Source of the DNA: Methanosalsum natronophilum
GTDB taxonomy: Archaea; Halobacteriota; Methanosarcinia; Methanosarcinales; Methanosarcinaceae
NCBI RefSeq assembly: GCF_024808815.1
Contig: NZ_JANUCS010000010.1
Location: 1-64,000, forward strand
Reading direction: 5' to 3'
DNA: 64,000 nucleotides
Shown here piece after piece: positions 1,121 through 50,316 of the stretch. Each line of letters begins with the position of its first letter. Position 1 is the stretch's first letter. The notes under the pieces were generated by a model. The model did not search any database, had not been told where the DNA came from, and saw only the letters and a program-made list of their open reading frames with translations. The position numbers and the translations under genes were made by a program.

Positions 1121-1123
1121 AGC

Positions 1124-24117: not shown

Positions 24118-24834
24118 AATTTATTATCCTCCTTATTTTGTGGGAATAGTTTTTGATTTTTCATTGTGTGGTTTTTATTAGATGATAAACATAATGTACT
24201 GTGCATGGTTGCACACTACTTCCTTCAAAAGATGAGAATAGCTCATTTTTTCTGAAGGACATTATCACCCTCCTAATCCCGTCATATTGGATTATCCATC
24301 AAAGATTACCATTTGACTATTAAATGTTTTGTGGTCTATTTGAGAGGATTTAACTAGAAATAGTATTAAAAAACGATTAATTTTTCGACAATACACGTAT
24401 TATTAGTGGATTTTATATAAATTCAAACGTATCTCAATTTTCAGGTTTCAAAATTGTCGAATATATATTTTCTATGAAATTTTATTAACTTACTAATAGA
24501 AAAACAATAACAATAAAACTTTAATTTATTTTATAGTCTTTTTACTGAACTTGATTTTAAAGTATTATTAATAAATAGATATTAGATTGACATATATATC
24601 TTAGATTATTTTAATTCCAAAAAAGTATCGTCTAAATAAAATGAATCTTAGATTAGGATATTATATCTAATATAAAGACATTAAACTAAAATTTAATCAG
24701 AAAAATGAAGTGCGTAACTCTATAAATTAATATTAAGTTACTAATTAAAAAAATAGTTTAAAAGAAGAGTCTTTAGTTAAAAAGCTCTTCATTTAAAAAA
24801 GATGGAGATAGATCCATCTTTATTTATCTCTTTT
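24118..24834 (-). promoter_or_regulatory. long upstream region of S-layer paralogue 1 with shared element at 24278-24336
   Basis: 717 bases without a gene. On the minus strand, 161 bases before the ATG, lies a 59-base block. It runs from GACCACAAAA, through an AT-rich TTTAATA eleven bases on, to ATCCAATATGACGGG. The same block with the same spacing precedes the other two S-layer genes. TTTAATA would be the TATA box and ATCCAATATGACGGG the transcript start, giving a leader of about 170 nucleotides. The remaining 500 bases toward paralogue 2 are extremely AT rich with nothing recognised. Confidence 0.6.
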
Positions 24835-27162
24835 TTATTTGTTATACATTCTTGCAAAGAATGCAACTGCTAGAAGTCCAGCAATGGCAAATATTGCTTC
24901 GAATCCAGGTGTTGGTTCAGGCTCTGGCTCAGGTTCTGGGTCAACTGGCTCTGGATCTACTGGTTCTTCTACAGTTATTGTGGTTTCTGCAGTATCTTCA
25001 CCAACATCGTTAGAGACTGTTAGTGTTGCAGTGTATTCACCTTCTTCTTCATATGTATGGGTTGGGCTTGCTTCTGTTGAAGTTTCACCGTCTCCAAAGT
25101 CCCATTCATAATCGACTGCATATTCAGATTCGTCAATGAAACTGACAGTCAATGGAGCTTCACCTGTGGTTGGGTCAGCTGTGAATGCTGCTACAGGTTC
25201 CTCGTCTACTGGATCTACTGGATCTACTGGATCTACTGGTTCACCAACAGTTCTCTCAACGAATGGGTAGAATCTTACCTCGTCATCATCTGCTACTCTG
25301 AAGTAGACATCTCCCATCAAGTGTTGAGTAGTGTCTTCCCTCAATGTTATTGATGAATCAAGCACAAGCTCAAGTTGATTAGTACCAACTGTATCAACTT
25401 CCATTTTACCAAATTCATCACCAGATTCGATTTCCATACCATCGTCGGCTATTTGGTAAACACCTTCGATCACAACAAGTGAATCAGCTGTTCCTTGGAA
25501 TACCTGTTCTACATGAACTGCTAATGTCACTACATCATCTTCATCTAAGACAGTCTGTTCATAGAACCACGTTTGATCTTCAGTATCATCATCTACTTCA
25601 ATTATCTTATCATCTACAAATTCACCATCTTTTGTGAGTTCGAGCCATACTTTTTCACCATCAACATCTATTTGTTGTGGTGTTATTGCATAGCCTTCTT
25701 CAAGGTCAAGTGTTTGATCCACTCTTAAAGTCCAACTATCATCAGTATCCATTAACAGTTTACTGAGTTTACCTACTTCTGAGCCATCCTCTGCATCATT
25801 TTCAGAGAATACTGGTACATACTCTTCTGCAAAGAATCCAATCTTTGAATAGTTAAATTGGTCATTTGCATCATAATAAAACTCGAATTCTGGATTTATT
25901 GGATATTGCATATGAGTACTGTAGTTTACATCCCCTTCATCGAGTTTTCTGTCATTAGCTCCCCCATCTAAAACGTCAACATTAACTTGAAGCCATTCTG
26001 AATGCATGTTTTCATCTAAATCATAAAAGAAACCTGCAAATGAAAAGCCTTCTGTTGCATTAAGAACATCGTTGCCATCACCATCGGTTACATTGTCACC
26101 TGTTGCGGTCCAATTAAGGTGTGTTGTGGTGACCCAGTCATCTTCATTTGCTACAGTACCTCTAACTTCGTATGTTCCAGGTTCGGTTATTTCTTGCATG
26201 AGGTAGAAACGTTTGTTCTCATCTTCACCTGAAGAATACTCAGCTACTCTAAAGTACAAGTCTTCCATGATATGTTGCTTTGTATCACTTCTTAATGTGA
26301 TATCTGATTCGAGTTCCATCACAATTTCATCTTCTACACTATCAACTTCCATTTTTCCGAATGTGTCATCGGTTTCGATTTCTGTACCGTCATCAGCAAT
26401 CTGCCAAGCACCTTCTATAACAACAAGTGCATCAACAGTTCCTTGGAATACTTGGTCTACATCAACCGCTAGAGTTACTACATCTTCTTCACCCATGACA
26501 GTTTGATCATATACCCAACTAGTTTCATTGTCGTTACCAACATCTATTATTTCATCATCTATGTACTCACCATCTTTTGTGAGTTCTAACCAAACTTTGT
26601 CACCATCAACATCAATCTGCTGTGGTTCGATTGCATAGCCTTCTTCAAGTTCTAGCGTTTCGCCAACTCTTAGTGTCCAGCTATCATCTGTGTCTAATAG
26701 AAGTCTACTTAGTTTATCTACATCATAGGCAGCTAATTCGTCTTTCTCATAGACTAATGGTCCGTCTTCAAAGACAGGTACATATTCCTCTGCAAGGAAA
26801 CCTAGTAGTGGATAGTCTCCCCAGTCTTCGTCATCTGCTGTAGTAAAGTTATGTGATGTTGTTACATTTTGAGGAGTTGCTGTATAAACTAAATCTTCCT
26901 CTTTTATTGTATCACCATCTACATCTAACACGGTTAAGTTTTCACTAGCACGGTCTTCATCAAGATCATACCAAAAGCCTGCAAAGTTTGTTTCATTTGC
27001 AACTAATTGATCTACATCATTATCTAATGCAGAGAAGTTCCAAATCGGTCCCCTTAGTTCAAGCTCGTCAACATAATCATCATTGTTGTTAGCACTTACT
27101 GCACCAACTGCAAACAATGACATGAGCATTAAGACAACCAGTGTGATTCCTAATTTTCTCAT
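24835..27162 (-). CDS. S-layer protein, duplication-domain type, with PKD domain and PGF-CTERM (paralogue 2)
   Basis: The start chosen is the ATG of MRKLGITLV at 27162, by comparison with paralogue 1; a first ATG at 27180 overlaps the GGAGG site. The 775-residue product has a signal peptide and two S-layer duplication domains like its neighbours. It then has an insertion absent from the other two: a PKD-type beta-sandwich (AAFTADPTTGEAPLTVSFIDES, EWDFGDGETSTEASPTHTY, GEYTATLTVSN) placed between the tile domains and a short Pro-Glu linker. The tail PTPGF, hydrophobic helix and RMYNK is PGF-CTERM. The PKD domain would sit in the stalk. It may be an alternative S-layer tile or a minor anchored component. 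Confidence 0.93.
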   Translation of the reverse strand: MRKLGITLVVLMLMSLFAVGAVSANNNDDYVDELELRGPIWNFSALDNDVDQLVANETNFAGFWYDLDEDRASENLTVLDVDGDTIKEEDLVYTATPQNVTTSHNFTTADDEDWGDYPLLGFLAEEYVPVFEDGPLVYEKDELAAYDVDKLSRLLLDTDDSWTLRVGETLELEEGYAIEPQQIDVDGDKVWLELTKDGEYIDDEIIDVGNDNETSWVYDQTVMGEEDVVTLAVDVDQVFQGTVDALVVIEGAWQIADDGTEIETDDTFGKMEVDSVEDEIVMELESDITLRSDTKQHIMEDLYFRVAEYSSGEDENKRFYLMQEITEPGTYEVRGTVANEDDWVTTTHLNWTATGDNVTDGDGNDVLNATEGFSFAGFFYDLDENMHSEWLQVNVDVLDGGANDRKLDEGDVNYSTHMQYPINPEFEFYYDANDQFNYSKIGFFAEEYVPVFSENDAEDGSEVGKLSKLLMDTDDSWTLRVDQTLDLEEGYAITPQQIDVDGEKVWLELTKDGEFVDDKIIEVDDDTEDQTWFYEQTVLDEDDVVTLAVHVEQVFQGTADSLVVIEGVYQIADDGMEIESGDEFGKMEVDTVGTNQLELVLDSSITLREDTTQHLMGDVYFRVADDDEVRFYPFVERTVGEPVDPVDPVDPVDEEPVAAFTADPTTGEAPLTVSFIDESEYAVDYEWDFGDGETSTEASPTHTYEEEGEYTATLTVSNDVGEDTAETTITVEEPVDPEPVDPEPEPEPEPTPGFEAIFAIAGLLAVAFFARMYNK

Positions 27163-27180
27163 TTTTCTTTTATCCTCCAT

Positions 27181-27727
27181 AATTTTTTAATCATAATTCG
27201 AATACAATTTCGTATTCAGGATGTTGTGTGAGAGTTAAAATGATATTTAGCGTCTCAATAACGCTATTTCCAAAATATTGTCACCCTCATTATCCCGTCA
27301 TATTGGATTAACAAGTATCCATTTATTTGGTCTATTATTAAATCTTTTGTGGTCAAATTAACCTTATTTTCAAAAAATAAGTAATAAATAACGTTATTTT
27401 TATCGACATATGTCTTAATTCACCTATTTAGTTATAATAAGTTTTATTTTTACATATAAAACCTATTTTATCAGTATTCTTTTTTATCTTGATTTTATAA
27501 GTCAAATAATAACTTATTATCATAAAAAAAGGTATTTTTTAACTTATTACAAAACCAAAACTGAAAAGTGCAATTGTTATAAATGAAAATATGATTCTAA
27601 TTAAAACCAAGTTAGTACACATAAAAGTAAATTTAATAGAACAAAAGTTATTCGACGATTACTAACAGATAATCTAAAATGAAAAATATGAGCTGCCGAT
27701 TTACAGCTCATGTAACTTATTTTTTTA
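27181..27727 (-). promoter_or_regulatory. upstream region of S-layer paralogue 2 with shared element at 27294-27354
   Basis: 547 bases without a gene. The shared block on the minus strand reads GACCACAAAAG, TTTAATA, then ATCCAATATGACGGG, 132 bases before the ATG. The last 17 bases of the block are identical to paralogue 1. The remainder is AT rich with no gene visible. Confidence 0.6.
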
Positions 27728-29767
27728 TCAAATCTTCCTTAACAGGTACACCATCACTAGAATTCCAATCAGGCCAAGTACTGCTCCAAACCCAGGTGTA
27801 GGCTCGGGTTCAGGCTCAGGTTCAGGCTCAGGTTCAGGCTCAGGTTCGGGTTCTGGTTCAGGCTCAGGTTCTGGTTCTGGGTCAATTGGGTCAACCGGAT
27901 CTACGGGATCAACAGGGTCAACTGGATCCACTGGTTCACCAACTGTCCTCTCAACGAATGGATAGAACCTAACTTCATTTGTATCATCTGCTACACGGAA
28001 GTAGATATCACTCATTAAATGTTGTTTACTATCTCTTCTTAGAGTTAGTGTTGAATCGAGTTCCATCTCGATCTGACCGTCAGTGTTTGTGACCTTCATC
28101 TTACCAAACTTATCATCTGTATCAATATCAATACCATCATCTGATATTTGCCAGATACCCTCGATCACTACAAGACTGTCTACTGTACCCTGGAAAACCT
28201 GCTCGATATTTATTGCAAGTGTGATAATATCATCTTCGCCAAGAACAGTCTGGTCATAGAGCCAGGTAGTATCGGCGGAACCTACATCAATGATCTTATC
28301 ATCAAGGTATTCTCCATCTTTGTTCAATTCAAGCCAGACCTTTTTACCATCAACATCGATCTGTTTTGGTACTAGACTATAACCTTCCTCGAGTTCAAGA
28401 GATTGACCAACCCTAAGTGTCCATTTATCGTCAGTATCCATCAACAATTTAGATAATTTATCTACAGCTATACCGTCAAGTTGAGATTTATCATCTACTA
28501 AAGGACCGCCAGTGAACACAGGAACATATTCTTCTGCAAAAAAACCAATTATAGCATAATGTTCAAATCCATTGAAATTCTGTTCTGAGGTGACATTCTG
28601 AGGTATTGCAATATATTTGACTTTATCATCCTCTAAGCTCCTTGAACCTGGTGCAAGACCTGTTCCATCTACTTTCAAAATCTCTGAATGTTTATCTTCA
28701 CCTAGATCGTACCAGAATCCTGCAAATGAGCCTTGTAAAGATGCCGGTTCTCCATTGATCTGAGTTCCTGTAGCAGTCCAGTTGAACGTAGTTCCATGTA
28801 CTGCAATAGTACCTCGAACCTCATATGTGCCTGGAGTAGTTATCTCCTGCATTAGGTAGAACCTACCATCTGTGGCAGTAGTATAATCAGAGACTCTGAA
28901 ATAGAGACTTTCCATGATATGTTGCTTACTATCCCTTCTAAGCGTGATCGCTGTATCAAGTTCCATCTCGATCTGACCATCAGTGTTTGTAACCTTCATC
29001 TTACCAAACTTATCATCAGTATCAATATCAATACCATCATCTGATATCTGCCAGATACCCTCGATCACTACAAGACTATCTACTGTACCCTGGAAGACCT
29101 GCTCGATATTTATTGCAAGTGTGATAACATCATCTTCACCAAGAACTGTCTGGTCATAGAGCCAGGTTTTGTCAGCAGAACCTACATCAATGATCTTATC
29201 ATCAAGGTATTCTCCATCTTTGTTCAATTCAAGCCAGACCTTGTTACCATCAACATCGATCTGTTTTGGTACTAGACTATACCCTTCCTCAAGTTCAAGA
29301 GATTGACCAACCCTAAGTGTCCATTTATCGTCAGTGTCCATCAACAATTTAGATAATTTATCTACAGCTATACCGTCAAGTTGAGATTTATCATCTACTA
29401 AAGGACCGTCAGTGAAAACTGGAACATATTCTTCTGCCAAAAAACCAATTATGGCATAATGTTCAAATCCATTGAAATTCTGTTCTGAGGTTACATTCTG
29501 TGGTACTGAATAATATTTCAGGTCATCATCTTCCAATTTATTGTCCCCAGTCCATGAATTAATGATAAGTCTTTCACTCGATTTGTTCTCATTCAGATCA
29601 TACCAAAATCCTGCAAAGTTGGTACTGTTCGCTTCAAGGCCAGTATCGCCTATGCCCCATACAGGTCCCCTAATCTCAAGCTTGTCATTTGCTGCAGAGC
29701 TTGGAATTGCAACCGCAAACATCGACATTAGCATCAGGGCAACCAGCACAATTGCTATTTTTTTCAT
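27728..29767 (-). CDS. S-layer protein, duplication-domain type, with PGF-CTERM (paralogue 3)
   Basis: A 679-residue S-layer protein with a signal peptide (LMSMFAVAIPSSA), two duplication domains and a Pro-Val-Asp then Pro-Glu linker before PTPGF, a hydrophobic helix and LLRKI. Its two domains are unusually alike at DNA level. Most of 28020-28600 repeats 28920-29500 with few changes (both contain [19 protein letters not shown] and SLVPKQIDV). In paralogues 1 and 2 the two halves have diverged, so this gene has undergone recent internal homogenisation. GAGGAG lies just before ATG. Which of the three is the dominant tile cannot be told from sequence. Confidence 0.94.
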   Translation of the reverse strand: MKKIAIVLVALMLMSMFAVAIPSSAANDKLEIRGPVWGIGDTGLEANSTNFAGFWYDLNENKSSERLIINSWTGDNKLEDDDLKYYSVPQNVTSEQNFNGFEHYAIIGFLAEEYVPVFTDGPLVDDKSQLDGIAVDKLSKLLMDTDDKWTLRVGQSLELEEGYSLVPKQIDVDGNKVWLELNKDGEYLDDKIIDVGSADKTWLYDQTVLGEDDVITLAINIEQVFQGTVDSLVVIEGIWQISDDGIDIDTDDKFGKMKVTNTDGQIEMELDTAITLRRDSKQHIMESLYFRVSDYTTATDGRFYLMQEITTPGTYEVRGTIAVHGTTFNWTATGTQINGEPASLQGSFAGFWYDLGEDKHSEILKVDGTGLAPGSRSLEDDKVKYIAIPQNVTSEQNFNGFEHYAIIGFFAEEYVPVFTGGPLVDDKSQLDGIAVDKLSKLLMDTDDKWTLRVGQSLELEEGYSLVPKQIDVDGKKVWLELNKDGEYLDDKIIDVGSADTTWLYDQTVLGEDDIITLAINIEQVFQGTVDSLVVIEGIWQISDDGIDIDTDDKFGKMKVTNTDGQIEMELDSTLTLRRDSKQHLMSDIYFRVADDTNEVRFYPFVERTVGEPVDPVDPVDPVDPVDPIDPEPEPEPEPEPEPEPEPEPEPEPEPEPTPGFGAVLGLIGILVMVYLLRKI

Positions 29768-31633: not shown

Positions 31634-34600
31634 TTATGTACTTGAAACATATCGTCGTATAAGTGAACTTAGTCTTTCAGGTATTTCTGAAGTTTCTTCT
31701 GCAATAGTTGCCTGGTCTTCTGGGTAGAGATCGAGAACAAAGTTGGTACCCTGGGCACCTATACCAAATCCTACTACGATTATGTTAGAGTACTTGTTCA
31801 CAAGGTCCTTGAACTGGTCACGATCGAACTGTTGGTTTGGGTCACCGTCAGAAAAATGGATTATAAGATTAAGTGATCTTCGATCATGTTTGGGTATTCG
31901 TTCAAATGCATAGTATATGGCCTGAAGATCATTATTTCTTCCTTTTGTCCTTGACACATCGTTTACTACCTTAATGATCTTTTTCTTAGTTAAATGTTCA
32001 CCGTATTTCAGGTAGATCTCCATTGGTTTATCGTCATGGAATCCAACTACCTCTACATTAACACCTTTTCTCTGGTCACTTTGGATTGCTGAGAGTAACA
32101 TGAGAACAGCGTCTGATACGTGATCGATCTTATCACCTTGCATACTTGCACTCTGGTCAATAAGTAGAGATATACGGACCATGTATCGTTCAGGTTGTTC
32201 ACGTTTCATGAATACTCGATCATTACCAGCAACAAGTGATGCGAGTTGAGTACTATCAAGTCTACCTTGAGCAAGATGTCTACGCCATATGCCCCTTTCA
32301 TGTCGGTATATTTGTCTAAATTTATCTCGCATTAGTTTAATATGGTCCATTACACGTTCGTACCTGACTTGAAACTCTTTCTGTTCCCGTTCAGTAATAC
32401 CTTCAAGTAACCTTTCTTCTCTTTCGAGTTCAGCTTTCTTTAATTCATCAACTCTTTTTTTCGCCTCGTTATCTTCATCGAGTCGTTCAAGTTCAATTCT
32501 TGACTCTTTAATAGCGTCCAAGATAAAGTTACGTAATTCCTCGAATTCTTCTGATGTGACTTGTCTACCAGTCTCATTGACGGGTTGGGTTGATAGTTTA
32601 GTGTTACGTTCATAATCAGTTAATTTAGTTGATGCCATGGATATTATTGCATCTTTCTCTGATTTAGTTGGGGGATCGATATGAATATCCTCAATAGTAA
32701 GGTATAATGAACGTTTTATCAGTTGTTGGAACTGAGGAGTATAATAGAGTTGTTTAGTTAATTCAATTAACTCGGTCTCGTTTTGGGTTGAGATGATCTG
32801 ATCTATTTTATCTTGAAGTGAATTGAATGCGTTTATTACATCTGTACCAAAATGATCTGTACTTATTCCTCTATTAATAGCCCCAAATCTCCAGTAATAG
32901 AGAAGTAATGTGATGAACTGGATATGTGGATATTCGTCATGTTCTACAACCAGCTTTTCTGAATCGAACGATTCTTCATATAATGCTAATATCCAGTCAC
33001 AGGTTCCAGGGAATTGAGCCATACCTTGTTGATTGATCCAAATATCACCAATTGCATTCACTAGTATTCGCGAGCCTGGTAATGACAGGAATTCGGTACT
33101 GAACTGTGTGGTGTTCCTATACAATATCTCAAATATTTCATGGAATAATAGGCCATAGATACTCTCATCATTGTCTCTATACAACAAATCCCATGGTGAA
33201 AAGAAGACATTTTTTATCCTAGGTATATCTTGAGCGAAAGTACAACCCCAAGAAGGTTTAGATGAAGAGTCTAAAGCATTAGATCTAGGTTTTTTCCATG
33301 GATGCAGAGGTATATCAAGAGCCGTTACAGTTTCAAGTAATCTCTGAAGTATTCGCTGTCTTTTTCTTGCACGTTCACTTTGATATAGAGTCGGTTTACC
33401 CGCTTCCCACCATCGATTGGGGTCATAGGTCTCTATCTCGTTCTCGGGTACTGGGAGAGAAAGGTTATAGCCTCGATATACAACTTCGTTTAGTGGTGTG
33501 CATTTAATACAGGGTTTTGGGTACTGTGTTTCAAGTACGTCTGTTAACATATAAAGGTCATTTAGATCGTTAGTGTTTAGATCGAGCTCATCTTCTCTTG
33601 AACTTAATCTTAGTTCGCGGTTAAGTAGTGTTCTTATATCCATGTCAGGGAAGTGTTTTAAATTCATTGCAATACGTTCAGTGCTCCTGAAAGTGGGTTT
33701 CCCATCATTACACTTCTCCCTAAGTTGGTTTATAAGACGTACAAGTGTCCCGAGTTGATGCATACAGTCATGATCTAGTTCTTTGATACCAATTAACCGT
33801 TTCATCACCTCGACCTCTTCTGAAGGTGGTAAGTATGTCATGTTTATACAGTACATACGGTCCATGAAATCTGCCATCATTGGGTTTATCTGATTAGTAT
33901 CTTCAGGGATAGTTGCTGTGAAGATTAGCTGAAACCCTTTCTTTGCAGTAACTTTATATGAATTACTGGAAATGTTTGGGTTCGAGGTATCTATACCTTG
34001 AGGTAATATTATTTCGCGAAACTGTAATGCGTGGTTCAGGACAGCAAGGACTCCGGGGGGTGCTCTATTCACGTCATCTATGATACAGGGTCGACCTTCA
34101 ACAGCTGATCTCACAAGTGGTGAGAGTTCGAGTTCAATAAACATATCATCTTTTTTTCGTACTGTTTTTTGCCAGACTGTCAGGTCATGGACGGTGGTTG
34201 ATTCGTGGAGTGACATATGTTCCACGTTCTTATCCAGTAGATCAAAGACAGAATGAGCTAACCATGTTTTACCACAACCTTGAGGTCCTACCAAGAGTAC
34301 ATTACGGTTCAAGTGAATTCCCAGTAGGGTCTGATGAAGTGATCGGTCATTCGTTTTAGTTCGTTTATTGAAATAATTGATCGTTGGTTTATTTGATTTG
34401 ATATTGGATTGGGGTAATAACGGGAAACTAAGGTGACCGGATATGAGATGACCTTTATCATAATATGGAGTGATGGTGTCTGATTGTGTATGAGTGGAAT
34501 TTTTTGAAAGTAAAACGTGTTCACCTACTTCTGAAACGAGATATGAGACTTTCGAATTAACCAGTTCATGACCTTCTTCCCAGTAACCTACCATGAACTC

Positions 34601-37600
34601 TGAATGAATTATTGTACTCAATGGTTCTTCGGGATGAGTTACTATATTTTCAACTATTCTTTCAAGTACTCTAAGCGACATTTTTCGCCAAATGGTCTTC
34701 TCGGAATTGATACTTGTTTGAAGTTCTATAAGGCGAGTGAGGAACGAGTAGGGCAATTCGTTATTACATGTCTTTTGTAGAAAGTTTAGTTTTTCTTGTA
34801 CTGGTAATTCTTTTATTTCCAGTACTGCACCGAACCTATCCTCGAAATCTTCACCTAGTTCATATCCTTCGTATCCTTCCTTGACCTCGTTCATTGTAGC
34901 GATTATCTGAAATCCTTGTGTTTTATTGAGCCACGTACCATCAGGCATTTCGAGTTGATCGGATTCCATTATTTCGTTCAGGATTGCACGTACCCCAGGC
35001 CTTACTCGTGTAACTTCATCAAGGATGATGATCTTGCCTTCTCGATATGCTTCAACTATATGACTATATTCCCAAACTGTTATACCAGCCTTAAGTCCTC
35101 TCATTGCAATAAGGTCTTGTGCTTCAGTTTCTTCTGATAGTGATATCACTATGGGGTCTTCACCCATGAGCTCACCGTATGCGAGTGATAACCAATCCTT
35201 ACCAGTACCAGCTTCACCTACAAGAAGTACGTGTTCTGACATACTTCTCATTTTTGAGAGAATGGTTACAACATTATCGTTCTGGCCAATACCGGATATG
35301 TACCTGCACTTGATACTAGGATATTTTCGTTGCCATACTATATCCCCGAAATCTACCTTTTCATAGTTTGTGGATAGTTGTGGTTTCTCAGAAACTATTG
35401 GCACTGATTTATCACCAAATTTGGCTTCCCAGCTTATCTTCCATACCTTGATCTGTTCATCATCAATTGCACCTTCAACACCGCACATCATACCCAGTAT
35501 ATCGATCCAATGTTCATCTGGGTATAATGCCTTGAATTTTATTGTGCGTACAAGTGTTCTTGTAGTAACTGTACGCCTAAAGTTCTGTATAGCAAGTATA
35601 CGTCTGCGATCCGCCATTTCAACAAGTTCGTGGATACGGTCACGAATATGCTCAGTAGGGGTACTGGAAGTTTCATTGTACCATACATTATGTAACAGTG
35701 CCTTTTCTTCGTCCGGTGCTAAATAATCGAGATTTATCGTGAACATACGGTCCATGAAATCTGCAAGTAATGGATTCACATCAACCAAACCACCAGGTGG
35801 AATTGCGGTCATCACGAGCCTGAAGTTCTTGTGTACTGATATCCTGTCAGTGTTCATTGACCCTATACGAACCTTTTTTGGGAGTATGATCTCACGAAAC
35901 TGTAATGCGTGGTTCAGGACAGCAAGAACTCCTGAAGATGCACGGTTCACGCCTTCTATCAAACAAGGTTTTCCTTCGATAGCGGCCCTCACAAGTGGTG
36001 AGATCTCAAGGTCAAGTGAAATATCATGCCCTATCCTTTCAGTCTTTTGCCAAGCAGTAAGATCGAGTTCTGTAGTACTTTCATGTAATGACATTTGTTC
36101 AATATCGGTATTCAGTAACTTGAAGATCGAAGTAGCTATAAATGTCTTCCCTGAACCTACGGGTCCCAATAACAATATATTTCTTTTGAGTGAAAGGCCT
36201 AGCATCAATTTATGTAATGCCTGATTGTTAGAATGAAAATCGGTAGTAAAGTAGTGTAATAGTTCGTTGTTGGTTGAGAGTGTGCTATTCCTTTTGTTCA
36301 CATCGAGTCGTACAGTACCTGATATTAACGCATTTCCTCTATAGTGAGGTACAAGGGTATCCCTTTCCACTGATTCTATGATGGAACTTAGTGGTTCTGC
36401 GAAACTTTCCGGTATTCTCCAGAAAAAAAGTTTTTGATCCTTGGAACTGGAGGCATAGATATAGTTATTTTGAAACTCGATCGTATCGAAATTTGTTGTA
36501 TCTTCGGGTGTGATCAATCTTGTACTGGTACTGGCCCATCCACCTTCACGTGTCTTTGACCACGTATAAAGTGAATTATTCATGCCATATCCAATAATAA
36601 ACTGAGTATTGGGAGATATATGAACAGATTTGAGTTTCTGTGGATTACCATTGAATTTGAGTTCATGGTATTCTATCTGTGGAGGTCTATTATGATATAT
36701 CTTCCATGCATGGATTTTATAGTCATTACCGTATGAGAATAGCCAGTTATGTTCATGGTCACATGACCATTTCATATCAGTCAGTTTACCTACGGGTCCT
36801 TTAAGTTTAATTGGTTCTGACCCGATATTTTCTTCTGAGATTGAATGCCATAAGTACAGGGTACCATCATTAATACCAGCAGCAACCAGGTACCTCCCAT
36901 CTTCGGACCATGAGAGTAACCCAAGATCAGTTGATTCTACCTGTTCTTGGAACAGTATATGTGTTTCTGTATTATTAGAAAGAGTAGGTTTGATTAGATA
37001 GATATTCCCGGCATATCCCACACAAGCTATCAATTTAGAGGTTGGTGACCATATTGCTGTGATCACAGATGTGGGGATTGGAATTGAAATTGATTTTTTA
37101 GTTAGGTCTGATTTTGATATGTCCAGAATATGAAGTGTATCTTTGTCATCAAGTAACAGTAACGATTTGTTGTCAGGGGACAGGGAGGTTACCAGAACTC
37201 TGTTCCCATCTTCCTTTAACCTTATACCATTAGAACGTGCAAATGTCATATCCTCATTTTTGTACCAGATCCAAACAGAGCCTTTTAATGTAACTATAAG
37301 GAAAAAGGAGTTATCAGTAGCTACAAATACTGATATGACTTTACTTAACTGATCCAGAATATGAGATTCGAGTTTTAACCATGTATTGTTCCCACGTTCC
37401 CAAACTTCAGGAGGAGCATACATTCCATTTACAATTAATAGATTGCCATCAGAGGATAGTGTTATTCTGTCTTTATGATCAGGTTCACGGTACAGTTCAT
37501 GCCAGTGACCCACAATTTTCCCGTTGTTTAGCTCTGAAACAAGTAATTTACCTGACCTGTCCATGAGCACTGCAGTTGAGCCGTTACTAGATACACGCAT

Positions 37601-40600
37601 TTGTATAATGTCTGGACATGGGTTATTCAGTTCAGATCCAAATCTCCAATCTCTTTTCCCGAGCAGCTGGGGTGGGAGGATCGAGATCAGTTTATCTACA
37701 GTATTCTTACCGGTTTCCCAATGACCTATCATGAACTCTGATCGTATTATTTCATCTATACCTATATCTGGATATGTTACTTTCATTTCAACTATACGTT
37801 CAAGTACTCGCAATGAGACTTTTCGCCACACATCTTTACTGCCATTAATACGGTTCTGAAGGTCGATCAGGGAGATGAGTGAAGTATCTGAGATCAAGGT
37901 GTTGTTGGGGTCAACTCGTTTCAAGAACTTGAGTTTTTCTTCATCCGGGAGTTCTTTTACTTCTAATACTGCACCGAACCTGTCCTCGAAATCTTCACCT
38001 AGTTCATATCCTTCGTATCCTTCCTTGACCTCGTTCATTGTAGCGATTATCTGAAATCCTTGGCCTTTCTGAACCCAAGTACCGTCAGGCATTTCGAGTT
38101 GGTCGGAATCCATTATTTCGTTCAGGATTGCACGTACACCTGGCCTTGTCCTTGTTACTTCATCGATGATGATTATGGATCCTTCTTGATATGCTTTTAC
38201 TATATGGCTATATTCCCAAACTGTTACGCCTTCATTAAGGTCACGTTTAGCTATCAGTTCTTGCCCTTCAACTTCTTCTGATAATGATATCACCATCGAA
38301 TTTTCGCCCATGAGTTCACCATAAGCGAGTGATAACCAGTCCTTACCAGTACCGGCTTCACCTACAAGAAGTACATGTGAACCCAAATTCCTAGCTTTTG
38401 CTAAAAGGTCGATTATTCGATCGTTTTGTTCTATACCACTGAAATATCTTGACCGGACATTATTATCTTTACGTGACCATATTTTACCACCCGCTTCCAA
38501 TGTCCCTGATGCAATATCAAGTCTGATATGTGGTGATTCAATTTGATTGGAGAAAGTATTAGATGAATCCCAAGTCGATATGAAAAATGACATCTTTTCC
38601 GGGCTTACAGCACCTTCTACTCCAGTTAACATAGAAAGGATATCTAACCAATGTTCTTTGGGGTACTCTTTCTTGAAATGAACAAGTTTTTCCAGTGATC
38701 TTGTACTAATGGCTCGTTGTGGTTCGCCCATATCTTGATCACGGGTGATAGTAGCTATGGATATGAGCTTTCTAAGCTCAGTATCGAAGTTGGCAGTAGT
38801 AGTATCTCCCCCAATATTATACCAAATATTTTTTAGAAGAGATCGTTCCTCTTCTGGTGGTAAATAGTCTATCCATACACAGTACATCCGGTCCATGAAA
38901 TCGGCTAGCATCTGATTGATACCGGTATGTTGTTGTGGAGGGTTCATTGTCATTACCAGTTTGAACCCAGGAGATATGGTGATACGATCAGTTAGGATAT
39001 TATTGTATCTGATCTTTTTTGGAAGAATTATTTCCCTGAATTGTAATATGTGGTTCAGGACAGCTAGTACTCCAGTGGATGCCCTATTTATTTCATCTAT
39101 AATACAGGGTTTTCCTTCAATGGCTGCACGGACCAATGGTGATACTTCAAGGTCAAGTGAGAGTTCGTCTTTTACACGTACGGTCTTCTGCCAAACAAGA
39201 AGGTCCTGGACGGTGGTTCCTTCATGAAGTGACATGTGTTCTACTGACCTTTGTAATAACCGAAACGCTGATTTGCTGAGCCAGCTCTTCCCAGTACCCA
39301 CATTCCCGATAAGAAGAACATTACGGTTCAATGAAAGACCTAAGAATAATTTATGCAAGATATTATTGTTAGTTGGTGTTTCTTTGATATAATAATCATA
39401 TTCAATTCCTGGGCATGAGATTTTGTCATTTCCTAGAGGCAACTTAACAGTACCACTACACAAAAAGCCATCTTTCACTGTGGGAGTCGAGTTTGCTGAT
39501 GATAATGAGCTTCGTAGTGGGGTGAGCGAGATTTCGAATTCGTGTTTATAATGTTCAATAGTATCAGGTGTAATATCAATACATTCACATACCCATTTAT
39601 TTGGAGCTGTATTGTGCCAGAACCACAGTTGAGTGTCTGATATTGCTAGAACAGTACGTTTATCGGTTGTTATTTCGATATGGTCAATTGGACGTGAAGG
39701 ACCTACGAGTTCATCGATCAATAGATATGGACTGTCATTATAGCATAACCATATCCTATTTTCAGCAATACCTATATTATATTCAGTTGTACCTAAGCTA
39801 TCATTTACTGTTCTATCAGTTTTCAGCGAGTTTAGGAGTTCTTTCTCAAACCTATCCTCGATATTAGATGAAAAAGCTAAAATTTCCTTTTCTACGACAT
39901 CATGTCCCTGTTCCCATGTTCCTATCAAGTATTCTGATCGAATAAGATTAGCAACAGGTTCTCTGGGATAGTTCGATTTTGATTCTATTATCCTTTCAAG
40001 CACTCTAAGTGACATTTTGCGCCACACTTTACCACTTGAATTGATACGGTCCTGCAACCTTACAAGTTCTTCAATGAACTGAGTTGGAGTCTTATTGTCA
40101 GCAATTCTTTTCAAGAACCTTATCCGATCATCAAAACTGAGTTCTGGTACATATAGAACAGTCCCAAATCTGTCCTTGAAACCAGGATCTATGTCATAAC
40201 CACCATAAGCTTCACCGGGTTCGTTCATTGTAGCAATTATCTGGAACCCTTGACCTTTCTGAACCCAAGTACCGTCAGGCATTTCGAGTTGATCGGATTC
40301 CATGATATTGTTTAGTGTGGCACAGACGCCCGGTCTTGTCTTATTGACCTCGTCAAGGACGATAATATCGCCTTGTATGTAAGCTTTTACTATCTGACCA
40401 TATTCCCATATAGTAACTCCTTCATGGAGACCTCTTGATGCTATTAGGTCGGGTCCTTCAAGGTCTTCTGAGAGTGAGATGACAATTGGATCTTCACCCA
40501 TGACCTTTCCATACTTCATGGCAACCCAATCTTTGCCCGTGCCAGCATCTCCTATCATAAGCACATGATAACCAAGTATTCGTGCTTGTATCATTTCTTG

Positions 40601-41569
40601 GATAAAATGAATGCTTTGTTGTGTCCATTTCTGAACAGAGTTTAGGTGAGGTATGTCAGGATTTTTTGTAGATGAAAGTTCATAACAGAGGTTTTGTGTG
40701 AGTGAAAGTATTGTGGAATTTGTATATTCAGTACAGTAGTGGAATTTGCCATTTACTTCATCTGAGATGTTGAGCTTGTTTATACTATCAAGTATCTTAT
40801 CAGCTACACACTCAATTGATACTGTTTGATCTATATCAAAATGTATTGAATAAGTCTTAGCTAGTTTAGTGTAAAATAAAGATAGATCTCGTTCAGTTAC
40901 ATTTTGGCATAAGTTGGTTAGTGAAGCAATAATAGCTGACCTTAGATCATTTGGTGAATTATGCCATAGAAATAGGTCACGAAACGTTACATATTCTAAA
41001 TAGAGAGTATCTGATAATACGTTTTCATCAAGATAATAAGTGTGAGTATCATGATCTAAGAAAGATAGGGGAGCAAGACCTCGAACTATAATGATCTCAA
41101 GTTCGTGTTTGGGCGGTTGGTTAGAGATTGTAGATAGTTGTCTGGTAAGAACAGTTATCACTTGCCTATAATTATTGTTGTAATTGTTCAGGTCATTTTC
41201 AGGTTTTAAATCCGAGGTGCAGGTAGAACCGTTACTTGAACTTAATTTAAAGTGTGCCAGATGTTCAATAGCTACAGATATTCTTTTTCCTTGTTCAAAA
41301 TTGTTTTTAAATTTACTATTTTCCCCATTTTTTGTTGGAACTAATTTTTCCAGATTAAGTGGTGGTGATGACCTGAGATTTTTGGCGAGTTGAGATATGA
41401 ACTCAAAATTGAGTTGAGTTTCTGGATATCGTTTTTTGGTTAAGTTTTGACCTGAAACCAATTCTAGAAAATAGGAAGGGGATACATTATTGTCAGTGAG
41501 TTCGGATAAGTGGTATGTTATATACCCTAGATTTTGATTATTGTCATGTGAATGATTTGATAAATCCAT
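31634..41569 (-). CDS. giant midasin-like protein: six AAA+ modules, beta-propeller, C-terminal VWA
   Basis: A 3311-residue single frame. Six MoxR-type AAA+ modules have Walker A glycines at residues 340 (GDAGTGKD), 755 (GNVGTGKS), 1070 (GEAGTGKD), 1802 (GPVGSGKT), 2118 (GEAGTGKD) and 2428 (GPQGCGKT). Modules 1, 3 and 5 form one type (LDEVNK/TR-RPGV, SDQLEMPDGTW), modules 2, 4 and 6 another (MSLHE-TT, LADFMDRM), so the array is three AAA pairs. Module 4 has lost Walker B (LIEGVNR). A WD-type propeller lies at about 1320-1740, between modules 3 and 4. Then comes a helical linker with FHEIFE (His 2810), a charged coiled coil (about 2990-3090) and a VWA domain with the MIDAS motif DQSAS at 3138-3142. 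The N-terminal 310 residues are unassigned. This is the layout of eukaryotic midasin; function here is unknown, probably ATP-driven remodelling. Confidence 0.92.
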   Translation of the reverse strand: MDLSNHSHDNNQNLGYITYHLSELTDNNVSPSYFLELVSGQNLTKKRYPETQLNFEFISQLAKNLRSSPPLNLEKLVPTKNGENSKFKNNFEQGKRISVAIEHLAHFKLSSSNGSTCTSDLKPENDLNNYNNNYRQVITVLTRQLSTISNQPPKHELEIIIVRGLAPLSFLDHDTHTYYLDENVLSDTLYLEYVTFRDLFLWHNSPNDLRSAIIASLTNLCQNVTERDLSLFYTKLAKTYSIHFDIDQTVSIECVADKILDSINKLNISDEVNGKFHYCTEYTNSTILSLTQNLCYELSSTKNPDIPHLNSVQKWTQQSIHFIQEMIQARILGYHVLMIGDAGTGKDWVAMKYGKVMGEDPIVISLSEDLEGPDLIASRGLHEGVTIWEYGQIVKAYIQGDIIVLDEVNKTRPGVCATLNNIMESDQLEMPDGTWVQKGQGFQIIATMNEPGEAYGGYDIDPGFKDRFGTVLYVPELSFDDRIRFLKRIADNKTPTQFIEELVRLQDRINSSGKVWRKMSLRVLERIIESKSNYPREPVANLIRSEYLIGTWEQGHDVVEKEILAFSSNIEDRFEKELLNSLKTDRTVNDSLGTTEYNIGIAENRIWLCYNDSPYLLIDELVGPSRPIDHIEITTDKRTVLAISDTQLWFWHNTAPNKWVCECIDITPDTIEHYKHEFEISLTPLRSSLSSANSTPTVKDGFLCSGTVKLPLGNDKISCPGIEYDYYIKETPTNNNILHKLFLGLSLNRNVLLIGNVGTGKSWLSKSAFRLLQRSVEHMSLHEGTTVQDLLVWQKTVRVKDELSLDLEVSPLVRAAIEGKPCIIDEINRASTGVLAVLNHILQFREIILPKKIRYNNILTDRITISPGFKLVMTMNPPQQHTGINQMLADFMDRMYCVWIDYLPPEEERSLLKNIWYNIGGDTTTANFDTELRKLISIATITRDQDMGEPQRAISTRSLEKLVHFKKEYPKEHWLDILSMLTGVEGAVSPEKMSFFISTWDSSNTFSNQIESPHIRLDIASGTLEAGGKIWSRKDNNVRSRYFSGIEQNDRIIDLLAKARNLGSHVLLVGEAGTGKDWLSLAYGELMGENSMVISLSEEVEGQELIAKRDLNEGVTVWEYSHIVKAYQEGSIIIIDEVTRTRPGVRAILNEIMDSDQLEMPDGTWVQKGQGFQIIATMNEVKEGYEGYELGEDFEDRFGAVLEVKELPDEEKLKFLKRVDPNNTLISDTSLISLIDLQNRINGSKDVWRKVSLRVLERIVEMKVTYPDIGIDEIIRSEFMIGHWETGKNTVDKLISILPPQLLGKRDWRFGSELNNPCPDIIQMRVSSNGSTAVLMDRSGKLLVSELNNGKIVGHWHELYREPDHKDRITLSSDGNLLIVNGMYAPPEVWERGNNTWLKLESHILDQLSKVISVFVATDNSFFLIVTLKGSVWIWYKNEDMTFARSNGIRLKEDGNRVLVTSLSPDNKSLLLLDDKDTLHILDISKSDLTKKSISIPIPTSVITAIWSPTSKLIACVGYAGNIYLIKPTLSNNTETHILFQEQVESTDLGLLSWSEDGRYLVAAGINDGTLYLWHSISEENIGSEPIKLKGPVGKLTDMKWSCDHEHNWLFSYGNDYKIHAWKIYHNRPPQIEYHELKFNGNPQKLKSVHISPNTQFIIGYGMNNSLYTWSKTREGGWASTSTRLITPEDTTNFDTIEFQNNYIYASSSKDQKLFFWRIPESFAEPLSSIIESVERDTLVPHYRGNALISGTVRLDVNKRNSTLSTNNELLHYFTTDFHSNNQALHKLMLGLSLKRNILLLGPVGSGKTFIATSIFKLLNTDIEQMSLHESTTELDLTAWQKTERIGHDISLDLEISPLVRAAIEGKPCLIEGVNRASSGVLAVLNHALQFREIILPKKVRIGSMNTDRISVHKNFRLVMTAIPPGGLVDVNPLLADFMDRMFTINLDYLAPDEEKALLHNVWYNETSSTPTEHIRDRIHELVEMADRRRILAIQNFRRTVTTRTLVRTIKFKALYPDEHWIDILGMMCGVEGAIDDEQIKVWKISWEAKFGDKSVPIVSEKPQLSTNYEKVDFGDIVWQRKYPSIKCRYISGIGQNDNVVTILSKMRSMSEHVLLVGEAGTGKDWLSLAYGELMGEDPIVISLSEETEAQDLIAMRGLKAGITVWEYSHIVEAYREGKIIILDEVTRVRPGVRAILNEIMESDQLEMPDGTWLNKTQGFQIIATMNEVKEGYEGYELGEDFEDRFGAVLEIKELPVQEKLNFLQKTCNNELPYSFLTRLIELQTSINSEKTIWRKMSLRVLERIVENIVTHPEEPLSTIIHSEFMVGYWEEGHELVNSKVSYLVSEVGEHVLLSKNSTHTQSDTITPYYDKGHLISGHLSFPLLPQSNIKSNKPTINYFNKRTKTNDRSLHQTLLGIHLNRNVLLVGPQGCGKTWLAHSVFDLLDKNVEHMSLHESTTVHDLTVWQKTVRKKDDMFIELELSPLVRSAVEGRPCIIDDVNRAPPGVLAVLNHALQFREIILPQGIDTSNPNISSNSYKVTAKKGFQLIFTATIPEDTNQINPMMADFMDRMYCINMTYLPPSEEVEVMKRLIGIKELDHDCMHQLGTLVRLINQLREKCNDGKPTFRSTERIAMNLKHFPDMDIRTLLNRELRLSSREDELDLNTNDLNDLYMLTDVLETQYPKPCIKCTPLNEVVYRGYNLSLPVPENEIETYDPNRWWEAGKPTLYQSERARKRQRILQRLLETVTALDIPLHPWKKPRSNALDSSSKPSWGCTFAQDIPRIKNVFFSPWDLLYRDNDESIYGLLFHEIFEILYRNTTQFSTEFLSLPGSRILVNAIGDIWINQQGMAQFPGTCDWILALYEESFDSEKLVVEHDEYPHIQFITLLLYYWRFGAINRGISTDHFGTDVINAFNSLQDKIDQIISTQNETELIELTKQLYYTPQFQQLIKRSLYLTIEDIHIDPPTKSEKDAIISMASTKLTDYERNTKLSTQPVNETGRQVTSEEFEELRNFILDAIKESRIELERLDEDNEAKKRVDELKKAELEREERLLEGITEREQKEFQVRYERVMDHIKLMRDKFRQIYRHERGIWRRHLAQGRLDSTQLASLVAGNDRVFMKREQPERYMVRISLLIDQSASMQGDKIDHVSDAVLMLLSAIQSDQRKGVNVEVVGFHDDKPMEIYLKYGEHLTKKKIIKVVNDVSRTKGRNNDLQAIYYAFERIPKHDRRSLNLIIHFSDGDPNQQFDRDQFKDLVNKYSNIIVVGFGIGAQGTNFVLDLYPEDQATIAEETSEIPERLSSLIRRYVSST

Positions 41570-47202: not shown

Positions 47203-47928
47203 TTAATCCATTTCGTTAGCTTCTTCTTCATTTGCAATTGCGATGAGTTCATTCACACAAGCTACAGCTATTGGTGTTCCACCTCTTGTACCTACACATG
47301 TGATAGAAGATACATCAAGATTTCTAACAGCATCCTTTGACTCGGCTGCGTTTACAAAGCCAACCGGTGTACCGATGATAAGTGCAGGTTTGATACCATG
47401 TTCAACCAGTCTACATACGGTAAGTGCAGCTGATGGAGCATTCCCTATAGCTATTATTGAGCCGTTGAGCTGGTCTCTGCTAGCTAAGAATCCAGCGGAG
47501 GTACGAGTTATCCCGTGTTTGTGGGCAAGTTCTGCGTCTGGGTCCCTGTCAAGTACACAGATGATATTGCTAGAATGTCCTTTTTTGCTTATACCGGTTT
47601 TTACCATGTTGATATCCACAAATATTGGTGCACCTGATTTTATTGCTTCTATCCCTGCAGATATTGGGTCATTGTTGAATTGCATCAAGTAGGCTACACC
47701 AGGATCTCCTGTTGCTATCATACATCTCTGGCGGATCCGATCCTCAACCGTATTATCGCCTACAATGAGTTTAGCAATGTTACGGCTAGTCATGGATATA
47801 GCTTTAGCTTCTTGTGTATGTGCACCAAGGTCTCTACATTGTTCTACTAGTTCCGAATCTATATCAGTAGTGAATTGAACGAGGTCGCCGAGTTCATCTA
47901 CTTCGATTTTTTTATTTTCAGTATTCAT
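47203..47928 (-). CDS. cbiC: cobalt-precorrin-8 methylmutase
   Basis: Moves the methyl group from C-11 to C-12 to give cobyrinate in anaerobic cobalamin synthesis. The 241-residue protein has the family strand AISMTSRNIAKLIVGD, AGFLASRDQLNGSIIAIGNAPSAAL near 155-180 and ALIIGTPVGFVNAAESKDA near 185-205. It is the last gene of the minus-strand cbi operon and overlaps cbiH by 11 bases. The sequence is longer at the N-terminus than the bacterial enzyme, with 30 acidic residues before the core. Confidence 0.94.
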   Translation of the reverse strand: MNTENKKIEVDELGDLVQFTTDIDSELVEQCRDLGAHTQEAKAISMTSRNIAKLIVGDNTVEDRIRQRCMIATGDPGVAYLMQFNNDPISAGIEAIKSGAPIFVDINMVKTGISKKGHSSNIICVLDRDPDAELAHKHGITRTSAGFLASRDQLNGSIIAIGNAPSAALTVCRLVEHGIKPALIIGTPVGFVNAAESKDAVRNLDVSSITCVGTRGGTPIAVACVNELIAIANEEEANEMD

Positions 47929-48706
47929 ATTTACGATGATACCCCCTAGGAGTAATTATTCTTTTAGTGCCATTATTTTCCCAAATACGAGATTCACTGT
48001 TCGTGACAAGAATTGTTGTGCTCATGTCAACCCAGTCGTTGTAATTTAATACTTCTTCAAGTGTTGTAACTACAGTATCTTCATCATTACCCCTTAAAGC
48101 ATTTTTTACTAGCCCTACGGGAACTGAAGGGTCACGATGTTTTTTAATAATATCTATTGCTTTACTGAAATTAGATTTTCTTTGCCTACTCTTTGGATTA
48201 TATAACGATATAACAAAGTCACTTGATGCTGCTGCATCTAACCTTTTTTCAATCATTTCCCAAGGAGTTAAGAGGTCACTTAGACTTATAGTTGCAAAAT
48301 CATTTACTATTGGTGCTCCTAAAATACTTGCGGCAGCAGTAATTGCAGTTACACCTGGGACTACTTCTATATCTACATCAAGACCCGTTTTTTCTGCTAC
48401 CTCTAATACAAGTCCTGCCATTCCGTAGACATTAGCGTCACCACCACTGATTATAGATACTTCTTTATTTTGAGAAAGTTTTACTGCACGAGTAGCTCGA
48501 TCTACCTCTTTTCCCATAGAACTTCTGATGATTTCTTGACCTTCAATAAAGTCTGAGATCTGGTCAAGATAAGTGCCATTTCCAATTATACAATCTGATC
48601 TTTTAAGAACATCACACGCTTTAACGGTCATGTGATCAATTGAGCCAGGTCCAATACCTACAATATATAATCTACCATTTTTATTTGTTTTATTCTGCGA
48701 TTGCAA
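47918..48706 (-). CDS. cbiH: cobalt-precorrin-3 C17-methyltransferase
   Basis: SAM-dependent methyltransferase that contracts the ring at C-17. Of 262 residues, the tetrapyrrole methylase signature begins YIVGIGPGSIDHMTVKA near 14-30. VSIISGGDANVYGMAGLVLE and VEVVPGVTAITAAASILGAP follow, the latter characteristic of CbiH/CobJ. The C-terminal half ends with RIITPRGYHRKY. It overlaps both neighbours in the cbi operon, so translation is coupled. Confidence 0.94.
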   Translation of the reverse strand: MQSQNKTNKNGRLYIVGIGPGSIDHMTVKACDVLKRSDCIIGNGTYLDQISDFIEGQEIIRSSMGKEVDRATRAVKLSQNKEVSIISGGDANVYGMAGLVLEVAEKTGLDVDIEVVPGVTAITAAASILGAPIVNDFATISLSDLLTPWEMIEKRLDAAASSDFVISLYNPKSRQRKSNFSKAIDIIKKHRDPSVPVGLVKNALRGNDEDTVVTTLEEVLNYNDWVDMSTTILVTNSESRIWENNGTKRIITPRGYHRKYEY

Positions 48707-49058
48707 CTGTTATCCTTCCATAAACTCTTTTTTTGAATACCAATTTTTTGTTTTGTGATAATGCTAATGCTGCAGGTTCAGCTACTCCTATCAGCCCAAA
48801 CCTATTAGCTTGGGATGGAGTGGGAATATTGTAATTATTAAGAACATCGTGTGGTATGAACTTTAGTTCAATACCAAGGATATGTGATGCTTCTATAAGT
48901 CCACTTTCATTTTCCTTTAATTTTGCAGAAGCAAGATATTTTACCTGACTTATATGATGGCCCGATTCACTTATAGCTTCACCTATTGCATCAATGACCT
49001 CTTTAGAATCAACGCCTTTTCTAGCACCTAAGCCTATTACTATCATTGAATTGTCCAT
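48690..49058 (-). CDS. cbiG: cobalt-precorrin-5A hydrolase, C-terminal part (split CbiG)
   Basis: This 122-residue gene encodes only the C-terminal CbiG domain (MIVIGLGARKGVDSKEVIDAI near 5-24, YLASAKLKENESGLIEAS and ALALSQNKKLVFKKRVYGRITVAIAE). Its ATG overlaps the stop of the preceding gene by one base (TAATG). Together with that gene it makes up one CbiG, which opens the lactone and releases acetaldehyde. In many organisms both parts are one chain; here they are separate and translationally coupled. Confidence 0.88.
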   Translation of the reverse strand: MDNSMIVIGLGARKGVDSKEVIDAIGEAISESGHHISQVKYLASAKLKENESGLIEASHILGIELKFIPHDVLNNYNIPTPSQANRFGLIGVAEPAALALSQNKKLVFKKRVYGRITVAIAE

Positions 49059-49570
49059 TATCTTTTACCGTCATGTTTTCTTTTTAGGACCGAAACATCG
49101 TCACCCACTATAACTACCTTCGGACCTGCAATTTCTAGAATTTCTACGTCCTGTTCAAGAAAAGCACAATTTACCTCTTTTGTGGACTCCTTATTAACTA
49201 TCTCGCAGTCAAGTGATGAAGCTATTCCTTCAACCGAGTTTTTACCATGTACCTCAGTTGCTGTTGTAATAACTGGAATACTACCAAGTTCACATATTTT
49301 TTTCACAAGCTCGTTGGCCCCATGATGGCCTCCAAGTAAAGGTATAGCAAACCTCAAGTTGGAGTCCATTACAACAATACCTGGATCTTCCCATTTATCA
49401 TTGATCAAAGGAGCAATTTCACGAACAACTATACCTGTAGCAAATAAAGCAACTACTGCACTATATTTTTCAAAGGCTTCCCCGAAAATACCTTTAGAAT
49501 ATATAAGAATATCCGCATCTATATGATTAGCTACTTTTCTAGCAGCTTCCATATTTCGCTCAAAGGTAAT
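49058..49570 (-). CDS. cbiG: cobalt-precorrin-5A hydrolase, N-terminal part (split CbiG), probable ATT start
   Basis: Encodes the CbiG N-terminal and central domains: SKGIFGEAFEKYSAVVALFATGIVVREIAP and GGHHGANELVKKI with ITTATEVHG. The first ATG (49552) would cut off the opening strand, because the upstream frame still reads ITFERN, the expected first beta-strand. No ATG, GTG or TTG exists there. ATT at 49570 overlaps the cbiF stop as TAATT, exactly where the next junction has TAATG, so I extend the gene to it (170 residues). If only the ATG is used the product has 164 residues. Confidence 0.78.
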   Translation of the reverse strand: MTFERNMEAARKVANHIDADILIYSKGIFGEAFEKYSAVVALFATGIVVREIAPLINDKWEDPGIVVMDSNLRFAIPLLGGHHGANELVKKICELGSIPVITTATEVHGKNSVEGIASSLDCEIVNKESTKEVNCAFLEQDVEILEIAGPKVVIVGDDVSVLKRKHDGKR

Positions 49571-50301
49571 TACAGCGGGTCTTGTGCGACTCCGTATAGG
49601 TGCGACCTCCTGTAGTTCTTAGGATCAACCACACCACCTATGATTATCATAGCTGAACGCTTGATACCAGCTGATTTTACTTTATCTGCAATGTCCTCGA
49701 CTGTACCCCTTATAACCTTTTCGTCATCCCATGATGCGTGATATATTACAGCTACTGGAGTGTTTTTTGGACATTCAAGTTTGTTCATGATCTCTTCAAT
49801 TTTCTGTGTACCCAGGAAAACTGCCATTGTAGAGTTTAATCTTGAAAATTCTGGGATTAGATCTTTATCAAGTGTTTTACCTGCAGGTCGTGTTATTATT
49901 AATGAATCAGAGACTCCATTAAGTGTCAGTTGAGTATCCAAAGCAGCAGCTGATGCAAATACTGATGATACCCCAGGTACTCTTTCCACAGCTATATCAT
50001 GTTTTTTTAATTCTTCGATCTGTTCTACAATAGATCCATATAATGATGGGTCACCGCTATGTAACCGTACTACAGTCTCACCTTTTTCCACACTTTTAGC
50101 CATCATCTCTGTAATTTCATCTAGTGTGAGACCATAACTGTCAACCTTTTTTGCATTAGAGTATTCAAGAACTATAGGATTGATTAATGATCCCGCGTAT
50201 ACTAACAGATCAGCTGACTCTAATAGTTCTCGGCCTTTAACCGTAATCAGTTTAGGGTCTCCTGGTCCAGCACCTACAAAATATACCTTTTTCTCCGTCA
50301 T
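49570..50301 (-). CDS. cbiF: cobalt-precorrin-4 C11-methyltransferase
   Basis: Methylates C-11 of cobalt-precorrin-4. The 243-residue protein has the methylase signature [17 protein letters not shown] at about 6-22, [21 protein letters not shown] near 78-98, and [17 protein letters not shown] with [14 protein letters not shown], typical of CbiF. It lies 15 bases after cbiL and its stop overlaps the proposed start of cbiG. Confidence 0.95.
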
Positions 50302-50316
50302 AAAAAAACTCCATGA

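Follow-up and report, generated by a model that had tools for sequence, protein, structure and literature searches.

A single gene in the window (the whole 64,000-nucleotide stretch of Methanosalsum natronophilum DNA that was analyzed) encodes a giant protein in which six AAA+ modules, a beta-propeller and a terminal VWA domain are joined in one chain; this chain, conserved in one archaeal genus, is probably a new form of MoxR-VWA machine that converges on the plan of midasin (Rea1/Mdn1). In the reading that we favor, with a probability of roughly 60%, it is a remodeling machine of the MoxR clade of AAA+ proteins, assembled from parts like those of CobS-CobT or NorQ-NorD that were turned into one chain and reached the midasin plan by convergence. 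We found no earlier description of the protein in the literature searched, which covered few subscription journals.

The gene, its homologues and its chromosomal surroundings

The giant gene (Table 1) is one uninterrupted frame without internal stops, as an earlier note made from the sequence had claimed; the six Walker A motifs that the note placed at residues 340, 755, 1070, 1802, 2118 and 2428 and the MIDAS motif that it placed near the C-terminus are all found at exactly those residues. Pfam identifies six AAA_5 domains (summed E 3.6e-145) and, when the C-terminus is searched alone, a VWA domain (2.6e-13); with the motif positions, these matches bear out the midasin-like plan, that is, a single chain with six AAA modules and a terminal MIDAS, that the note had recognized.

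Table 1. Coordinates of the giant gene, its parts and two related cassettes. Positions of the giant gene are those of the window; positions of the cassettes are those of loci L066 and L067.
Feature	Residues	Position	Strand	Description
Giant gene	1-3311	31634..41569	-	ATG start, 3311 aa; [A1-B2][A3-propeller-B4][A5-B6]-degenerate zincin-like domain-coil-VWA
N-terminal region	1-300	40670..41569	-	Matches no known family; low conservation (identity about 18-36% per 50 residues)
AAA1 (odd, A type)		40166..40567	-	Walker A GDAGTGKD, Walker B DEVN, FKDR finger
WD-like repeat, AAA1-AAA2 linker	about 620-675	39545..39712	-	Weak similarity to the main propeller
AAA2 (even, B type)		38885..39322	-	GNVGTGKS, DEIN, TMNPP sensor 1, FMDR; sole fully canonical site
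AAA3 (odd, A type)		37976..38377	-	GEAGTGKD, DEVT
WD40-type beta-propeller, AAA3-AAA4 interval	about 1310-1725	36395..37642	-	Pfam
AAA4 (even, B type)		35744..36181	-	GPVGSGKT; Walker B E-G, sensor-1 Asn replaced
AAA5 (odd, A type)		34832..35233	-	GEAGTGKD, DEVT
AAA6 (even, B type)		33854..34303	-	GPQGCGKT, Walker B D-D, degenerate sensor 1
Degenerate zincin-like domain	about 2786-2865	32975..33214	-	HEIFEILY...NAIGDIWIN
Charged helical linker preceding VWA	2995-3100	32270..32587	-	Sequence composition
GRLDSTQLASLVAG motif directly ahead of VWA		32225..32266	-	Invariant in three species; common to CobT (GYLDSARL)
CobT-like VWA domain	3129-3285	31715..32185	-	MIDAS DQSAS, GRNNDL and SDGD motifs
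MIDAS DxSxS	D3138-S3142	32144..32158	-	DQSAS
Two-gene cassette, L066		4551-8351 and 8356-10857		
Two-gene cassette, L067		6629-10429 and 10351-12858		

The length of the gene is unusual, so we considered the reading, also raised in the earlier note, that an assembly or annotation error has fused several unrelated genes; we assign it practically no probability, and an independent complete genome rules it out. A single-contig, complete genome of a second Methanosalsum species encodes an unbroken homologue (3261 aa, 54-55% identical, same order of parts). Most of a third copy, 90% identical to that in the complete genome, is present in an independent assembly of a third Methanosalsum genome as a 2520-aa open piece and a separate N-terminal piece. 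Purifying selection acts along the whole length of the gene: for the two closest copies (those of the complete genome and the third genome) dN/dS is 0.135 overall, with values of 0.033 for the VWA domain, 0.067–0.124 for AAA2–6, and 0.21–0.23 for the propeller and the zincin-like region. Because a full-length homologue occupies the same chromosomal place and dN/dS is this low, the giant gene is real and under selection and is no assembly fusion.

The host genome (2.03 Mb, 98.9% complete) carries KaiC-like and S-layer-like genes on one side of the giant gene and amidohydrolase, UspA, CBS and cobalamin genes on the other, and this order is kept in the second species. The two flanks are widely separated in other complete genomes of the Methanosarcinaceae, which therefore reveal no simple insertion site. 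The third-position GC content of the gene (32.4%) is slightly higher than that of most of its neighbors (21–38%). A mobile or viral origin was considered and rejected: viral contigs contain no relative, plasmids give no DNA match, and the matches to the giant protein in plasmids and phages are single-AAA or VWA proteins of 25–30% identity. The adjoining S-layer-like genes (21991-29767) encode three tandem paralogues with acidic proline repeats and are syntenic in the second species; at the edge of the window (1-77, minus strand) lies the 5′ end of an archaeal 16S rRNA gene.

The earlier note had proposed that the phylogenetic spread of the chain be examined. Among 393 Halobacteriota genomes searched, other Methanosarcinaceae included, it is confined to Methanosalsum, and neither the chain nor anything similar was found in 294 Planctomycetota genomes; a scan of GTDB contigs for further copies used two exact peptides as its only queries and does not establish absence from other phyla.

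Two alternating kinds of AAA module

The six modules are of two kinds, odd (A) and even (B), that alternate strictly. Identity is 55–79% among the odd modules and 51–59% among the even modules, versus 26–29% between the two kinds; in the module tree, the odd modules form one clade and the even modules another (support 100/99). The short elements that precede the modules are repeated in the same rhythm: LxSGxVxL is located ahead of AAA2, AAA4 and AAA6, and WxRK..RYxxGIxQND ahead of AAA3 and AAA5. Given the alternating clades and the repeated preceding elements, the simplest reading is a threefold tandem repeat of an A-B pair whose middle copy contains the propeller. The propeller was identified with Pfam (WD40_CDC20, 5.5e-16; WD40, 5.1e-9) and replaces the 'helical linker' that the earlier note had assigned, wrongly, to the interval between AAA3 and AAA4. 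A degraded second propeller after AAA1 was also considered; it is weakly supported.

The rule for Walker A motifs is GK-S/T. AAA1, AAA3 and AAA5 instead have GxAGTGKD, and GK-D replaces GK-S/T in every copy of them read from the three species; such a loop may not bind Mg-ATP in the normal way. The odd modules nevertheless keep the Walker B DE, the sensor-1 Asn and the FxDR arginine finger, the last of which is present in all six modules. AAA4 has lost both the catalytic Walker-B Glu (E-G for D-E) and sensor 1, and we predict from these replacements that it binds ATP but does not hydrolyze it. A GK-N loop is also found in two other archaeal MoxR genes that adjoin VWA genes.

With noncanonical ATP sites in half of the modules and long insertions such as the propeller parting AAA3 from AAA4, the chain might form no single ring and instead be a string of AAA domains that act separately or assemble between chains. 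We regard this as unlikely: the F-x-D-R finger is kept in every module, a pseudo-threefold ring would call for just such an A-B alternation, and the moderate AlphaFold model of AAA4-5-6 (from five sequences; pLDDT 67.5, pTM 0.65) is a continuous arc. In Foldseek searches this whole three-module model aligns with the rings of dynein and Rea1 (TMq 0.39–0.55, E down to 2.7e-25, rmsd about 10–17 Å); the model supports an ordering of AAA4–6 as an arc, although a closed ring is not thereby proven.

Concatenated six-AAA chains have been described as a peculiarity of dynein and midasin (PMC4047620, PMC6920918). The dynein heavy chain likewise has six AAA_5-family modules per chain; however, the giant protein lacks the linker, stalk and microtubule-binding parts of dynein and has a VWA domain. 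With midasin it has in common one chain, six AAA+ modules, a terminal MIDAS/VWA domain that follows a charged linker and is expected to dock on its own ring, and some ATP sites without the Walker-B Glu. In Rea1, the MIDAS domain docks on the ring and engages substrate, and AAA1 and AAA6 are unable to hydrolyze ATP (PMC6286127).

The earlier note left open whether the plan is convergent or related. A true relative of midasin, whose chain would descend from a common ancestor or stem from eukaryotes and would act on ribosome precursors, would explain the shared order of six AAA modules, linker and terminal MIDAS, and midasin is the best PDB sequence match for the whole chain (1e-32) and for the profiles of the odd (1e-43) and even (6e-38) modules. 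This top score is no evidence of kinship, because six modules compared with six modules add up. In AU tests a clade of the giant modules with midasin is rejected (p-AU 0.0037), as are clades of the even modules with midasin (0.0002) and of the odd modules with midasin (0.030), whereas the odd and even modules as a single clade are not rejected (0.30). Because the midasin rows of this tree are fragments taken from alignments and several rows have long branches, the AU tests are supportive rather than final. The midasin lid (PF17867) gives no match in the six giant lids at E values up to 10, although the same search finds it in the archaeal cassette L066 (2.9e-13). The giant protein also lacks the long linker and the 600-aa D/E-rich tail of midasin: its AAA6-VWA interval is about 470 aa, and in the charged segment ahead of the VWA domain, which the earlier note had pointed out and which is a charged helical stretch, 26% D/E is balanced by 24% K/R over residues 3000–3100. 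Unlike midasin, it has a WD40 propeller, a strict A-B tripling and GK-D Walker A motifs in the odd modules, its modules do not nest with those of midasin, and it occurs in one archaeal genus, the other Methanosarcinaceae genomes searched having no homologue. Midasin kinship is thus very unlikely, and orthology was rejected on the AU tests and the missing lid. Because the AU tests reject a shared clade and the lids lack the midasin lid domain, the midasin-like plan is most likely convergent, so that of the two options in the note the first is preferred to the second. We find no evidence for a role on pre-ribosomes; the gene is found in one genus only.

The C-terminal arm and the MoxR-VWA systems

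The giant protein has two features of MoxR-VWA systems (clade-7 AAA+ proteins with a VWA co-chaperone), namely AAA_5/MoxR-type modules and a VWA domain with both a DxSxS MIDAS and a second Asp (SDGD at residue 3240). Its VWA domain appears nearest to that of CobT: the C-terminus matches the PHROG CobT family (4.2e-9), and LDS and GRxNDL motifs are common to the VWA domain and the solved CobT; the Pfam matches are weak (CobT, E 0.014–0.023), with CobT_C at 15.5 bits scoring below the curated cut-off of 21. A CobS-like gene followed by cobT is matched by an even module (2e-10), and the lid of an even module is weakly similar to CbbQ_C (0.0032). CobS-CobT, the motor of the aerobic cobaltochelatase, and NorQ-NorD/CbbQ-CbbO share MoxR-clade AAA modules and a VWA protein with the giant; however, in these systems one gene encodes the AAA subunit, which forms a homohexamer, and a separate gene encodes the VWA protein, whereas the giant has everything in one chain.

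The CobT-like VWA domain and the CobS-like even modules suggest a chelatase motor of the cobalamin or another metallo-tetrapyrrole pathway, in which a fused CobS6-CobT would work with CobN; also, cobalamin genes (cbiT-cbiL-cbiF-cbiG-cbiH-cbiC) are located about 6 kb away, in the same neighborhood in the second species. We give this reading some weight but consider it unlikely. CobN was not found in this genome at its completeness of 98.9%, for which reason a cobaltochelatase with CobN was rejected; in the second species, CobN is encoded about 830 kb from the giant gene. The genes in between are unrelated, the giant gene is transcribed separately, and relatives that have this cobalamin cluster presumably do without the giant. 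The cobalamin genes in the window (47203-53270) encode CbiG domains, a protein of the GATase_3/CbiA type and methyltransferases. Inside one of them, on the minus strand, ARAGORN calls a plus-strand tRNA-Tyr (48800-48886) that Rfam does not call and that is probably false.

The preferred reading of a MoxR-clade remodeling machine is also illuminated by split relatives. Among the 393 Halobacteriota genomes, the VWA profile additionally matches six genomes of one other archaeal family and one genome in which a VWA gene adjoins two MoxR genes. The six genomes have a two-gene cassette (e.g., L066 and L067, Table 1): one gene encodes a VWA protein whose zincin-like domain has an intact HExxH, and the other encodes a HEAT-repeat protein that bears two AAA modules in tandem. 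Residues 2670–3311 of the giant align to this split archaeal VWA/zincin protein (99.1% probability, 485 columns), and the degenerate zincin-like segment is homologous to HEIGHY...NTFEDPR in the split partners; the zincin-like motif is decayed in the giant (HEIFEILY...IGDIW) relative to the intact HEIGHY...FEDPR.

The cassettes resemble the giant in this homologous VWA arm, zincin-like domain included, and in the pairing of their AAA modules. The tandem AAA modules of L066 and L067, however, are 34–38% identical to AAA3/AAA5 of yeast Rea1, and those of L066 have the Pfam midasin lid noted above, so that the cassette is a candidate archaeal midasin-like tandem pair; the modules of the giant are not midasin-like, and the cassette modules are therefore not its direct ancestors. 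L053 (1-7314) encodes a VWA protein (1262 aa), a MoxR protein with GKT and a second MoxR protein with GK-N fused to a long tail; with its homologous VWA arm and paired AAA modules, it is a possible split counterpart of an A-B pair plus VWA. These relatives differ from the giant in being divided among two (L066/L067) or three (L053) genes with at most two AAA modules. On a Natronomonas plasmid (L073, 4212-8863), a protein with helix-hairpin-helix and AAA_5 domains and a GK-N Walker A precedes a 985-aa VWA protein. The split cassettes may represent stages of module pairing.

The earlier note had further suggested a conflict or defense role. MoxR-vWA-beta-propeller ternary systems consist of separate genes, with the propeller behind the vWA domain, a GXXXTAKS P-loop and a variable third component (Kaur et al., 2020, PMC7159879), and the giant, which contains the same three domain types, could be such a device fused into one protein. 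Consistent with this, Pfam bpMoxR gives a summed score of 36.5 bits (E 3.4e-9), and on haloarchaeal plasmids MoxR-vWA clusters occur together with giant HEAT proteins or with kinases. No stretch of the bpMoxR match passes by itself, however; the P-loops of the giant are GxAGTGKD or GxxGxGK[ST] rather than GXXXTAKS, and its propeller does not follow the vWA domain but is embedded in the AAA chain. PADLOC matches at the locus are no larger than P-loop-sized fragments and none is convincing; the giant has no effector domain and no variable third component beside it. Its locus is fixed among housekeeping genes, with flanks and architecture identical in the two species in which the locus is readable, and the selection on it is strong and purifying. 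A defense function is thus quite unlikely, and this suggestion of the note is not upheld. The plasmid clusters themselves (L063 and L064) encode MoxR, vWA and a third giant gene and resemble conflict systems; in L063, the third gene encodes a HEAT-repeat protein, with protein-kinase genes upstream.

A proposed mechanism and what it would mean

Returning to the single-chain remodeling machine, we propose that a pair of unlike MoxR modules gave rise to three tandem copies (A1-B2, A3-B4, A5-B6), that a WD40 propeller was placed in the middle pair, and that the end of the chain was completed by a VWA partner of the CobT type whose zincin-like domain is dead. The six modules would close into one pseudo-threefold ring. 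From the motifs that remain, ATP would be hydrolyzed chiefly at AAA2, perhaps at AAA6, and at the odd modules too if the GK-D loop works, and AAA4 would serve as a binding-only site. By analogy with the VWA domains of NorD and midasin, the VWA domain with its GRLDS segment would fold back and dock on the ring of the same chain. Binding or recruitment of the target, most likely a large metallo-enzyme or other protein complex, may fall to the propeller and the dead zincin domain, and ring movements could pull or twist the MIDAS-held target via the charged helical linker; for NorQD, finger-in-pore twisting has been described (PMC13036017). The AlphaFold model of the C-terminal arm (two sequences, pLDDT 39) was unusable.

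We think it somewhat more likely than not that ring motors with six AAA modules in a single chain, known from dynein and midasin, arose independently a third time in the giant, which would be the first of them in a prokaryote; in this case a MoxR heterodimer would have been tripled and its VWA partner captured, and a pseudo-threefold ring with alternating GK-D and canonical sites would remodel its target in cis. A prokaryotic six-AAA chain from a separate tripling would identify a route to such motors, that is, from pair to tripling to capture of the VWA partner, and the split and tandem-pair relatives in other archaea help show how six-AAA motors can arise. The A-B alternation lets one test which sites must hydrolyze ATP and why unequal modules share a ring, and Methanosalsum offers a smaller, culturable archaeal system in which to study a VWA domain pulled by an AAA+ ring.
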